From Phyllobacteriaceae bacterium UBA1940 (GTDB lineage Bacteria; Pseudomonadota; Alphaproteobacteria; Rhizobiales; Rhizobiaceae), in NCBI GenBank assembly GCA_002336975.1, contig DDFA01000120.1, forward strand, positions 4,818-11,707: a DNA stretch of 6,890 nt. Reading direction: 5' to 3'. The notes under the pieces were generated by a model. It was not told the origin of the DNA. It did no database searches and saw only the letters and a program-made list of their open reading frames with translations. The position numbers were made by a program, and so were the translations under genes. Positions 553 to 4,454 of this stretch are shown here, one piece after another. Position 1 is the stretch's first letter. Each line of letters starts with the position of its first letter.

Positions 553-683
553 GATCCGACGGATCGAGCCTGTTCCATTTCAGAACAATTTGGTTAACGC
601 CGCGCGCCGACGCCTCCGCGTCTCGACCGTCCCGGCATGGCCGCTATGCGTCGCCGCGGCCGGCGACCACAACATGTTGTGGC

Positions 684-698
684 GAACGGACCGGGAAC
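684..698 (-). promoter_or_regulatory. LexA-type direct repeat (GAAC-N7-GAAC) in module copy 1
   Basis: The plus strand reads GAACGGACCGGGAAC, an exact 8/8 match to the alphaproteobacterial LexA core. It is 14 bases from the start of the CAACATGTTG palindrome, the same offset as the near match in copy 2. The GC-rich spacer is less typical of a strong operator, so function is uncertain. Confidence 0.4.
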
Positions 699-711
699 CT
701 GGCGCGATCGC

Positions 712-733
712 TGATTCGTCGATGATTCGTTCC
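712..733 (+). repeat. Two tandem 11-mers containing GANTC sites
   Basis: The units are TGATTCGTCGA and TGATTCGTTCC in perfect tandem. Each contains a GATTC, a target of the CcrM-type GANTC methyltransferase of Alphaproteobacteria, so two potential methylation sites sit one helical turn apart. The pair recurs with a single mismatch at 995-1016. Confidence 0.7.
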
Positions 734-966
734 GGCTTTGAGCCGATCGTTAACGCAAACCGGGCGCCGCCGCCGAAAAGCCTTGGGAATATGCAAGGAG
801 TTGTAAACGAAGTCACAACCGCGCCGGCGCGCCGGCCTGGCCGTGGCCGCGGAACCTGGCCGGACGGCTGCAAAAGGTTAACGGCCACGCAAAAATCGCT
901 GCGGACGGCGTTGGAGCGATTCACGATCTGGTTGGTGAAAGCCGATTCAAATCAACATGTTGCGTG

Positions 967-981
967 GAACATAACATGAAT
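967..981 (-). promoter_or_regulatory. Near-match LexA-type repeat (GAAC-N7-GAAT)
   Basis: The plus strand reads GAACATAACATGAAT, 7 of 8 core bases, with an AT-rich spacer. It occupies the position in module copy 2 that corresponds to the exact match at 684-698 in copy 1. Confidence 0.3.
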
Positions 982-994
982 GTGGTCGAGTCAG

Positions 995-1027
995 TGATTC
1001 GTCGCTGATTCGTTCCAGACTCGTTCT
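995..1027 (+). repeat. Three tandem 11-mers with GANTC sites
   Basis: The units are TGATTCGTCGC, TGATTCGTTCC and AGACTCGTTCT, giving three GANTC sites at an 11-bp period (996, 1007, 1018). A further GAGTC lies just upstream at 988-992. The last two units together create the GTTC-N7-GTTC element at 1012-1026. An 11-bp period places each unit on the same face of the helix. Confidence 0.7.
1012..1026 (+). promoter_or_regulatory. LexA-type direct repeat (GTTC-N7-GTTC) upstream of the helicase
   Basis: GTTCCAGACTCGTTC is an exact match to the alphaproteobacterial SOS-box core. It lies about 37 bases upstream of the putative -35 element and 108 bases upstream of the helicase start. Two explanations compete: a true LexA operator, or a by-product of the 11-mer array in which it sits. 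It is a little far from the candidate promoter for classical repression. Confidence 0.4.
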
Positions 1028-1063
1028 GGTTGTTAATTGCAGCGCCGATTTCGCCGCGCGCCG

Positions 1064-1133: not shown

Positions 1134-4100
1134 ATGTCGGACGACCTGCTTCGGATGAATGTTTCCCCCAGACCGAAAGACGCAATGATCTTGTCGGGCC
1201 GCGGCGTCACCGCCGTGCTGGGGCCGACAAATACCGGCAAGACCCACCTCGCCATCGAGCGCATGGTCGCCCATTCCTCCGGCGTCATCGGCCTGCCGCT
1301 GCGGCTGCTGGCGCGCGAGGTGTTCAACCGGGTGGTCGACAAGGTCGGCGCAGCCAATGTCGCGCTGGTCACCGGCGAGGAAAAAATCCAGCCGCCCGGC
1401 GCACGTTACGTCGTGTGCACCGTGGAGGCGATGCCGCGCGAGACCAAGGCGGCCTTTGTCGCGATCGACGAGGTGCAGCTCGCCAACGACCTGGAACGCG
1501 GCCACATTTTCACCGACCGCATCCTCAACCTGCGCGGCCGCGACGAGACGCTGCTGCTGGGCGCCGGCACGATGCGCGGCATTCTCGAGCAGACCTTGCG
1601 CGGCATTTCGGTGGTCAGCCGCCCGCGCATGTCGCATCTCGCCTATGCCGGACAGAAGAAGATGACGCGGCTGCCGCGCCGTTCGGCCGTGGTGGCGTTT
1701 TCGGCTGACGAGGTCTACGCCATCGGCGAACTGATCCGCCGCCAGCGCGGCGGCGTCGCGGTGGTGCTCGGCGCGCTGAGCCCCCGCACCCGCAACAAGC
1801 AGGTTGAGCTCTACCAGTCCGGCGACGTCGACTTTCTGGTCGCCACCGACGCCATCGGCATGGGCCTCAATCTCGACGTCGACCATGTCGCCTTCGCCCA
1901 GAACCGGAAATTCGACGGCTATCAGTACCGCGACCTGTCGGCGGCCGAACTCGGCCAGATCGCCGGCCGCGCCGGCCGCCATGTGCGCGACGGCACGTTC
2001 GGCGTCACAGGCCAGGCCCCGCCGCTCGACGAGGCGATGATCGAGAAGATCGAGGGACACGACTTCGATCCGGTGAGGGTGCTGCAATGGCGCACGCCCG
2101 ACTTCGACTTCTCCTCGCTCGACGCGCTGCGCCGCTCGATCGAAACCGTTCCGGTGGTCGAGGGGCTGACCAAGGCCCTGCCGGCGGTCGACCAGCGCGC
2201 GCTCGAGCATCTGGCCGGCGATCCCGCGATCAGCGCGCTGGCGACGAACCGCCGGCGCGTTGCGCTGCTGTGGGACGCCTGCGCCCTGCCCGACTACCGC
2301 CGCGTCGCGCCGGCGCAGCACGCCGAGCTGATCGGCTCGATCTTCCAGGACCTCGCCCGCCGCGGCCATGTCGACGAAACCTACATGGCCGAACAGGTGC
2401 GGCGCGCCGATTCAGCCGACGGCGACATCGACACGTTGTCGCATCGCATCGCCCAGATCAGGACCTGGACGTTTGTTTCCCATCGCCCCGGCTGGCTTGC
2501 CGATCCGTCACACTGGCAGGAGAAAACGCGGGAGATTGAAGATCGCTTGTCGGATGCGCTGCATGAACGGTTGACGAAACGCTTCGTTGATCGCAGGACA
2601 TCCGTACTTATGAGGCGCTTGAGAGAGAACTCGATGCTCGAAGCCGAAATCAGCCCAGCCGGCAGTGTCACCGTCGAGGGCCACCACGTTGGGGAGCTGC
2701 AGGGCTTCCGCTTCACCGTCGACGCCAGCGCCGGCGGCGAGGACGGCAAGGCCGTGCGCGCGGCCGCCCAGAAGGCGCTGGCCGCCGAATTCGAAAGTCG
2801 CGCCGACAGGTTTGCGGTCGCCGCCAATGGCGACTTCGCGCTCGCCCATGACGGCATCGTCCGCTGGCTCGGCCAGCCGGTCGCGACGCTGACCGACACC
2901 GACGACATTTTGAAGCCCCGCGCCATCCTGCTGGCCGACGAACAGCTGACCGGCCCGACGCGCGACAAGGTGGCCGAGCGCCTCGATCGCTATGTCGGCT
3001 ACCAGGTCGACAGCCAGCTGAAGCCGCTGGTGGATATGAGGAATGCCGATCAGTTGTCCGGCATCGCCCGCGGCGTCGCCTTCCGGCTGGTCGAGAATCT
3101 CGGCCTGATCGACCGGCGCGAGATCGCCGACGACATCAAGTCGCTCGACCAGGAATCGCGCGCCGCCTTGCGTCGCCTCGGCGTGCGCTTCGGCGCCTAT
3201 CACATATTCCTGCCCGCGCTGCTGAAGCCGGCGCCGGCCAATCTGGTGACGCTGCTGTGGGCGCTGAAGAACGACGGCAAGGACAAGCCGGGTTTTGGCG
3301 ATGTCGTCCACGCGCTTGCGGCGGGCCGCACCTCGGTCGTCGTCGACCAGAGCTTTGACCGCGCCTTCTACAAGCTCGCCGGCTATCGCACGCTCGGACG
3401 CCGCGCCGTGCGCGTCGATATTCTGGAGCGCCTGGCCGACCTGATCCGTCCCGCCCTGGCGTGGAAGCCCGGCGTCGGCGCGCGTCCCGACGGCGGCTAT
3501 GACGGCGGCGCATTCATGGTGACGCCGCAGATGATGTCGATCCTCGGCGCTTCGCCCGCCGACATGGAAGAGATTCTCAAGGGGCTGGGCTATCGCGGCG
3601 AGCCGAAACTGCCGGCCGAGATCGCCAGACGCATGGCCGATGTCGACGCCCGCGCCGAAGCGCAAAAGGCCGCGGCGGCCGCAGCAGCCGCCCCCATTGG
3701 GGAGACGCAGCAGCCGGCATCGGACGAGGCGGCGGCCGAAGAGACCACGGCGAATGAAATCGCCGAGGTCGTCGACACGGGCGTCGTGATTGCGGCGGGG
3801 CCGCTTCCCGAGGCGGCAATCGCCATTGCCCCGGTGACGTCGGACGAGGCGCAAGAGGCCGAAGACGCAGCAGGCGCCGACGATGCGGGCGCGAACGACA
3901 GCTCGCCGATGGCGGCGGACGCGATTGCGCCGGTCGCGGAAGCGATCACCGCCGAAACGCCGGCGGGCGAGGCGCCCGCAGTGACGGCCGAAGCCGCCGA
4001 GGAACCAAAGCCGGTGCTGATCTGGCGGCCCGGCCGCTTCGACGGCAATCGACGTCACGGCCGCGACCAGCAGCGCGGCGGTCGCCGCCGCCAGGGCGGC

Positions 4101-4454
4101 GAACAAAGCGAGCAGGCGGCGCAGGATGGCCAGCGCCCCGACGGGCAGAAAAAGGGCGGCCAGCGCCGCGGCGGCCGCAACGCCGGCAAGAAGGACGAGA
4201 CGCCGCAGGAGCCAAAGGTTCTGTGGCGCGCCAGCGATCCCCGGCCCGGCCGGCCGCCGCGCGCCGACGGCGACGGTCGTGGCGAACAGCCGCGCCGCGA
4301 AAACCGTGGTCCGCGCCGCGACGACAAGGGCCCGCGCAAGGACGATCGCGCGCCGCGCAATTTCGAGGCCGGGCCGAAGCGCGACGCCGGCAAGCTCGAC
4401 CCGGATTCGCCGTTCGCCAAACTGGCGGCGCTGCGCGACCAGTTGCGCAAATAG
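1134..4454 (+). CDS. SUV3-like DExH RNA helicase with long Ala/Glu- and Arg/Gly-rich C-terminal tail
   Basis: This is an ATP-dependent superfamily 2 helicase of the Ski2/SUV3 type, the family that gave mitochondria SUV3, an RNA-degradation helicase. In a 1106-residue product the motifs are: Walker A GPTNTGKT (30-37), PLRLLAREV (55-63), TGEEK (80-84), Walker B as D112-E113-V114-Q115, GAGT (143-146), motif V ATDAIGMGLNL (237-247) and motif VI QIAGRAGR (275-282). A helical C-terminal region follows, with a conserved-looking RFVDRRTSVLMRRLRE stretch (about 483-498). From about residue 836 the chain becomes Ala/Glu-rich, then from about 968 Arg/Gly-rich, ending in DPDSPFAKLAALRDQLRK. The tail carries two similar short motifs, VLIWRPGR (961-968) and VLWR (ending near 1032). 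The tail is probably disordered and RNA-binding, comparable in character to RNase E tails (inference). I chose ATG 1134 because AAGG at 1124-1127 precedes it; an in-frame ATG at 1089 would add 15 residues but has no ribosome-binding site. It is probably cytoplasmic, and its partners are unknown. Confidence 0.9.
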   Translation: MSDDLLRMNVSPRPKDAMILSGRGVTAVLGPTNTGKTHLAIERMVAHSSGVIGLPLRLLAREVFNRVVDKVGAANVALVTGEEKIQPPGARYVVCTVEAMPRETKAAFVAIDEVQLANDLERGHIFTDRILNLRGRDETLLLGAGTMRGILEQTLRGISVVSRPRMSHLAYAGQKKMTRLPRRSAVVAFSADEVYAIGELIRRQRGGVAVVLGALSPRTRNKQVELYQSGDVDFLVATDAIGMGLNLDVDHVAFAQNRKFDGYQYRDLSAAELGQIAGRAGRHVRDGTFGVTGQAPPLDEAMIEKIEGHDFDPVRVLQWRTPDFDFSSLDALRRSIETVPVVEGLTKALPAVDQRALEHLAGDPAISALATNRRRVALLWDACALPDYRRVAPAQHAELIGSIFQDLARRGHVDETYMAEQVRRADSADGDIDTLSHRIAQIRTWTFVSHRPGWLADPSHWQEKTREIEDRLSDALHERLTKRFVDRRTSVLMRRLRENSMLEAEISPAGSVTVEGHHVGELQGFRFTVDASAGGEDGKAVRAAAQKALAAEFESRADRFAVAANGDFALAHDGIVRWLGQPVATLTDTDDILKPRAILLADEQLTGPTRDKVAERLDRYVGYQVDSQLKPLVDMRNADQLSGIARGVAFRLVENLGLIDRREIADDIKSLDQESRAALRRLGVRFGAYHIFLPALLKPAPANLVTLLWALKNDGKDKPGFGDVVHALAAGRTSVVVDQSFDRAFYKLAGYRTLGRRAVRVDILERLADLIRPALAWKPGVGARPDGGYDGGAFMVTPQMMSILGASPADMEEILKGLGYRGEPKLPAEIARRMADVDARAEAQKAAAAAAAAPIGETQQPASDEAAAEETTANEIAEVVDTGVVIAAGPLPEAAIAIAPVTSDEAQEAEDAAGADDAGANDSSPMAADAIAPVAEAITAETPAGEAPAVTAEAAEEPKPVLIWRPGRFDGNRRHGRDQQRGGRRRQGGEQSEQAAQDGQRPDGQKKGGQRRGGRNAGKKDETPQEPKVLWRASDPRPGRPPRADGDGRGEQPRRENRGPRRDDKGPRKDDRAPRNFEAGPKRDAGKLDPDSPFAKLAALRDQLRK

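Follow-up and report, generated by a model that had tools for sequence, protein, structure and literature searches.

NrdR binds pairs of boxes, with 14-17 or 24-27 bp between the 16-bp boxes (PMC12051234), and each box is marked by outer C/G bases and a central AT (PMC9110341). At Pseudomonas topA, a DNA-topology gene, a single NrdR box acts, and NrdR raised topA expression (PMC4409342). Two further motifs enter the comparison made here: the alphaproteobacterial LexA (SOS) box, GTTC-N7-GTTC, which stands singly in about 97% of Caulobacter SOS promoters and for which the accessible part of the report mentions no helicase (PMC12700426), and the CenR motif, TGA-N8-TGA (PMC9275681). These statements follow the accessible parts of the reports cited.

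In this report, we describe a non-coding element that is present in two copies upstream of a Suv3-family helicase gene in a 6,890-nucleotide stretch of DNA (the window) from Phyllobacteriaceae bacterium UBA1940. Like the NrdR box pairs of reductase operons, the element has a 16-bp palindrome with outer C/G and central AT, and its proximal boxes are about three helical turns apart. Unlike those operons, its probable target is a helicase, its boxes are weaker than those at nrdJ, its distal and class-level copies are single-box, and its boxes lie inside a longer GATTCG element some 190-240 bp before the start codon. With Pseudomonas topA it shares the placement of one NrdR box at a non-reductase gene of DNA transactions; however, the topA effect was measured, whereas the helicase case is known from sequence, and the accessible part of the topA report describes no GATTCG element (PMC4409342). 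The proximal layout is also like the alphaproteobacterial LexA box, with ranks comparable to those of recA boxes, but this layout is lost in the distal copies. Many proximal left arms read TGAACAAANCNTGA, like the CenR motif, but the T before GA is dropped in distal copies and in other families, and CenR was rejected on that ground. Among the matches listed in the open-licence literature, none deals with the control of this helicase by NrdR or LexA.

Results

Two copies of one element

Both copies in the window belong to a single element of about 95 bp and are separated by 283 bp (Table 1); they match profile R1, which was derived from relatives with the window excluded. A first-pass annotation of the window had described two modules of matching order, with offsets of 0, 14, 42 and 79, the same separation and about 66% overall identity, and our recount bears this out: 57 of 86 positions (66%) agree between 670-755 and 953-1038, including 10/10 in the palindrome, 21/22 in the 11-mer pair and 5/5 in GTTAA. 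GTTAACG is present at 593 and 877, as had been stated. In 200 first-order Markov shuffles of 452-1154, no 86-mer match exceeded 46 positions, against the 57 observed. The left arm had been read as GAAC-N7-GAA(C/T). Its GAAC is indeed conserved, but its second half is loose: this arm is the weakest shared part of the window copies (9/15), and the base after the second GAA in 91 family proximal copies is T in 68, C in 11, G in 11 and A in one. The annotation had overlooked two features: an additional 11-mer, the third of the proximal copy, which begins at 1018, and another palindrome-like box, at 922-931, which precedes the box at 953 by 31 bp.

Table 1. Positions of the element copies, their component motifs and the helicase gene in the window
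Feature	Position	Strand	Basis
Distal copy	665..756	+	Profile R1 match, 69.5 bits, E 4.6e-20
Distal NrdR-like box CCACAACATGTTGTGG	667..682	.	Best single site of the window, nrdJ-box matrix, 10.6
Distal left arm GAAC-N7-GAAC	684..698	+	GAAC conserved, second half loose
Distal GATTCG core and 11-mer pair	712..733	+	Conservation in 70 aligned copies
Eight GANTC sites	713, 724, 918, 944, 988, 996, 1007, 1018 (span 713..1022)	.	Six from 918 on
Distal GTTAA	749..753	+	Sequence and family loci
NrdR-like box P0, proximal copy	919..934 (core 922-931)	.	Single-site rank fifth, 5.9
Proximal copy	949..1038	+	Profile R1 match, 74.5 bits, E 1.3e-21
NrdR-like box P1, proximal copy	950..965 (core 953-962)	.	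31 bp from P0; single-site rank third, 6.2
Proximal left arm GAAC-N7-GAAT	967..981	+	Family loci comparison
Proximal GATTCG core and three 11-mers	995..1028	+	Family loci and 70-copy alignment
LexA-like box GTTC-N7-GTTC	1012..1026	.	Exact in 95/96 family proximal copies
Proximal GTTAA	1032..1036	+	Sequence and family loci
Suv3-family helicase	1155..4454	+	Pfam DEXQc_Suv3 7e-26 and Helicase_C; Suv3 structures, best 7.5e-38

The helicase gene and its neighborhood

The window carries, in order, aqpZ (on the minus strand), the intergenic region, the Suv3-family helicase gene, and genes for an S4-domain protein, FdxA and CarD. The helicase frame opens at 1089, and similarity to relatives begins at the ATG at 1155. 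NCBIfam returned no match, and hence no name, for this protein; in Sinorhizobium meliloti a helicase named mgpS (SMc03877), which may or may not correspond to this one, is reported to be acid-induced in the accessible part of one study (PMC4941405).

A search of 151 family genomes with the intergenic DNA matched 80, the source genome included. The family set comprises 112 loci, three of which are the source locus and some of which represent the same place twice. The 11-mer anchor occurs in 110 of the 112, the exceptions (L026 and L041) being contigs that end just short of the element, and it lies upstream of the helicase on the helicase strand save for one stray opposite-strand match in L079. 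In the family loci fetched by DNA similarity, the element is upstream of the helicase and on its strand in 30 of 30. Helicase loci were also fetched and named, as the best 80 of 175 confirmed; their flanks include aqpZ in 3/80, the S4 gene in 76/80 and fdxA in 76/80. Given the rarity of the aqpZ flank and the adjacency of the helicase in these loci, the element evidently travels with the helicase and not with aqpZ. The earlier statement that neither gene explains the modules thus holds for aqpZ but fails for the helicase.

A further sequence, ACAGCCTATATGGTTG at 1080-1095, lies 70 bp ahead of the helicase start; it is the window's second-best single NrdR-like site and also resembles a -10 promoter box.

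Distribution and copy number

The first-pass annotation had called for a conservation check in relatives, and this was carried out: the element is kept in the family, the order and the class. Mesorhizobium and Phyllobacterium are among the genera that have it. Family counts were made on 96 non-redundant loci of 110, with near-identical loci dropped. Left out were L001 and L002 (the source locus), L149 and L150 (repeats of L119 and L122), L026 and L041; some counts also leave out copies exceeding 3 or 4 mismatches. Across the order, taken as Hyphomicrobiales from the named relatives, the anchor was found in 202 of 297 genomes at no more than two mismatches, chance matches included. The helicase was present in 14 of the 20 loci returned by the order search, the other six (L126, L128-L132) looking like chance matches, and in 18 of 20 more regions chosen by hand from the order list.

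The class-wide search, with a profile built without structure from 70 diverse copies, gave a match (E<=0.01) in 36 of 288 genomes, one being the source genome, two from the order and 33 from outside it; 252 gave no match. With E<1e-6, the element occurs in 12 further alphaproteobacterial families outside the order. There the helicase lies downstream on the same strand, within the 1.5 kb fetched, in 25 of the 27 loci read. The class-wide matches in G454, G501, G502 and G563 are weak (E 2e-4 to 0.01) and not near the helicase, and were counted as chance; a further match, in G725, has E 2.7e-4. Four genomes with only a chance match do possess the helicase, and so the element is either not universal or has drifted past the reach of the profile.

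Copy number differs with taxonomic distance. At least two copies are present in 74 of 87 family sources, a single copy in 13; L094 has five, the highest number, and three of the second copies in the family are weak (13.8-18.3 bits). In other families of the order, 28 of 30 sources have at least two copies, L151 and L179 having one. Outside the order, all 24 loci read have a single copy. The source genome yielded only the two window copies, both with a pattern search (no more than three mismatches) and with the profile (E<=10), which speaks against the suggestion of a dispersed regulatory element; the assembly (3.36 Mb in 144 contigs) is 81% complete, and its missing part may hold further copies. 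An arrangement that is tandem in the order and single outside it, with short conserved motifs amid unconserved spacers, agrees with the alternative suggestion of an old duplication with retained binding sites. The simplest reading of the copy numbers, on the sequences compared, would be an old duplication inside the order.

Anatomy of the element

Ninety-six family loci and an alignment of 70 copies define the layout. From the 5' end it comprises the palindrome C.A.AT.T.G, then GTGAACRAA with GAA 11 bp on, and GTCAGY; the 3' part consists of GATTCG, GNTTCGTTC, a third half-site 11 bp on, and GTTAAC. In the 70 aligned copies, the G, A, T, C and G of GATTCG are invariant and its second T is kept in at least 90%; the A of the second GAA and the G-TC of CGTTC are likewise invariant. 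Across the order and the class, GATTCG and CGTTC vary least, and GATTCG, the most conserved part of all, is accounted for by neither NrdR nor LexA.

The 86 spacings between family copies concentrate at 271-274 and 281-285, with R 0.68 for a period of 10.5 bp, but these groups may represent two inherited states. Other families give R 0.27 with p of about 0.12 (29 intervals), and no phasing is seen when each value is counted a single time; DNA looping in helical phase is therefore not claimed here.

NrdR-like boxes

We take the palindrome C.A.AT.T.G to be the NrdR core. At least five of its six positions are matched in 92/96 family proximal and 83/85 family distal copies, in 18/26 and 19/25 copies of the other families of the order, and in 26/27 copies outside it. 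A partner box precedes the palindrome at 31 bp in 73 of 92 family proximal loci and at 30 bp in 11, with no other distance prominent. In other families of the order, it is found at 31 bp in 10/18 proximal copies and at 31 or 30 bp in 10/19 distal copies. Neither the family distal copies nor the copies outside the order have a partner at a fixed distance. The 30-31 bp from centre to centre in the proximal copy fits NrdR, because the published gaps are 14-17 or 24-27 bp between 16-bp boxes.

To score these boxes, we used a matrix of 24 boxes from 12 reductase (nrdJ) promoters of relatives, one pair being from the source genome; these boxes were picked with the C.A.AT.T.G core, and agreement in the core is therefore partly built in, while spacing and flanks are free. 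In the window, the pair at 922 and 953 scores 12.1, and the next-best pair 4.3. Of 95 family loci, 64 have the helicase pair in first place and 87 have it among the top five; a control place ranks first in none of the 95 and in the top 20 in nine. For other families, the pair is first in 11/29 and in the top five in 18/29. A single box ranks first in 58/88 family distal copies and in 19/27 loci outside the order. A genome-wide search of 41 genomes with an nrdJ-pair profile reached the helicase locus at E<=1 in only one (G012, E 0.48) of the 24 genomes whose helicase place is known, and the helicase boxes are therefore weak. Its top match is the reductase gene in the three genomes compared (G000, G015 and G030). 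An nrdR-type gene, as defined by TIGR00244, which presumably denotes NrdR, is present in 17 of 18 genomes; none was found in the 81% complete assembly of the source genome.

The reductase genes of relatives were located by PF02867, and that of L208 is named as a B12-dependent reductase (nrdJ). Their upstream regions have features of their own. NrdR-like boxes are 227-259 bp apart in 10 of 14 nrdJ loci listed, an echo of the helicase layout. In L202, L204 and L206-L212 they occur at two or three places upstream of the B12-dependent reductase gene, and the nrdJ locus of the source genome (L213; contig 2, reverse strand) has them at 481, 716 and 943. In several of these regions a DnaA-like TTATCCACA lies ahead of the first box, and there is a promoter-like GAATC-CTTGACG...GAGTC...TTTTAT stretch. 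Separately, in the AT-rich family f92 (L189, L195 and L197), a second strong NrdR-like box (14.9-20.6) is found 96-97 bp downstream of the first.

LexA-like boxes and other motifs

GTTC-N7-GTTC is found in 18/26 proximal copies of other families and in 6/27 copies outside the order, where 20/27 have it with one mismatch. The anchor used for collecting the loci includes two GATTC and the first GTTC, and so only the second GTTC tests the LexA layout freely. A matrix was built from recA loci, 10 of 15 of which have the exact pattern; eight boxes were used, L162 and L163 having been dropped by judgement. By this matrix, the proximal box is first in 70/95 family loci and among the top five in 92/95; the values for other families are 11/29 and 25/29. 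Distal copies are first in 0/88 family loci and 1/31 loci of other families. The left arm lacks a conserved second GAAC. Distal copies have the layout in 11/86 (family) and 0/25 (other families), and LexA as sole owner of the element was rejected on its absence from the remainder (75/86 and 25/25). On sequence grounds, LexA is a plausible ligand of the proximal copy only.

GANTC sites are clustered: family proximal modules have 4.22 on average and distal modules 1.87, against 0.36 expected by composition, with two of the sites belonging to the anchor. Such a cluster could be a target of CcrM-type methylation. The first site is always GATTC, which implies a constraint beyond methylation. DnaA-like boxes (one mismatch allowed) precede 24/88 family distal copies, against 0.65 expected, and 1/96 proximal copies, against 0.70. 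The CtrA site TTAA-N7-TTAA, present in only 7/81 loci, was rejected.

Loci in which element and helicase part

The small genome G489 has no helicase match and yet retains the element, at 9313-9401 of L262 (also seen in L182), where it precedes a LolA_like gene and an MMPL exporter gene, with fdxA and carD 5.6-6 kb downstream. In G620 (L177), the helicase is 4.7 kb from the element, with MerT and heavy-metal-domain genes in between. Three distal-type copies in G300 (L138) lie beside a DUF3108 gene, and the flanks fetched on the two sides, of about 15 kb and 12 kb, have no helicase match; the helicase and a proximal copy are together on a different contig. Two genomes of the same genus, G435 and G174 (L266 and L267), have three copies beside the same DUF3108 gene and no helicase match in 5 kb. 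Of the other loci of the order tested, 7 of 10 have a DUF3108 relative close to the array, as does 1 of 23 family loci. The relocated copies, which score 25.9-45.3 bits, therefore probably arose by a break between distal and proximal copies. Distal copies can thus outlive the link to the helicase, which a promoter reading does not predict.

Discussion

We propose that an old composite operator before the helicase gene was duplicated in tandem to give the two copies, with NrdR likely at the palindromes and LexA predicted at the proximal 11-mers; we give this proposal an even chance of being correct. At high dATP, an NrdR tetramer would occupy the proximal pair at 922 and 953, three helical turns apart, and would lower helicase output, and the single distal box would add to this repression. 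LexA would contribute a DNA-damage input through its predicted box, and the GATTCG core and GAACRAA arms would be recognized by a further factor. Binding could also be linked to replication if the GANTC cluster is methylated. Helicase output would thereby track replication, dNTP supply and damage. That NrdR and LexA would bind here, that expression would be lowered and that the distal copy would matter are points that we infer from sequence features.

A different view assigns the element to one unnamed DNA-binding protein that recognizes the GATTCG core and the GAACRAA arms, about 42 bp apart, that flank it, the NrdR and LexA boxes being side inputs or mere resemblances. The constancy of GATTCG and CGTTC across order and class argues for such a protein, as do the incompleteness of both the NrdR and the LexA layouts in the distal copies and the finding of one locus per genome by the profile outside the order. 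However, it makes coincidences of the spacing of the box pair and of the matrix ranks, and we regard it as rather unlikely. The retention of the element in G489, the three-copy distal arrays beside DUF3108 in G300, G435 and G174 and the DnaA-like boxes before the family distal copies raise the thought that the array is a chromosomal site, for instance for titration or replication timing, that stands before the helicase by happenstance. This strikes us as improbable given that the helicase is adjacent in nearly all loci outside the order and that the relocated arrays have low scores, as if decaying. Nor is the distance to hemE, our proxy for the origin, constant: it is 92-505 kb in 12 family genomes and 492-611 kb in six genomes outside the order. 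An element at oriC itself was rejected on the same distances, which were obtained in 12 of 13 family genomes (hemE is on another contig in G085; G033 has two hemE-like matches, the nearer of which was used).

The copies are tandem, co-oriented, intergenic and roughly 100 nt each, and their arms are able to pair in some genomes, all of which would suit tandem small-RNA genes or leader-RNA elements. Against this, RNAalifold found no consensus pairs in 70 copies, the two Rfam matches were both far under the curated score, no T-run follows the conserved part, and the pairing of GAACAAA with TTCGTTC has a mismatch in many family copies. We consider an RNA element very improbable.

The composite operator may also be part of something broader, in which an ancient site on the GATTCG core joins NrdR, LexA and replication-linked methylation on the helicase, bringing a supposed RNA helicase into a DNA-replication programme, while the distal array is separable and may stand free. 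This extension is possible, and we offer it tentatively.

It is unusual for about 95 bp of non-coding DNA to be recognisable across families throughout a bacterial class, and the invariant GATTCG core offers a clean bait for its regulator. If NrdR acts here, its reach extends past ribonucleotide reductase to a Suv3-family helicase. That would be a first testable clue that this helicase serves DNA replication or repair, in a class of bacteria that includes the ancestry of mitochondria, the home of eukaryotic Suv3.
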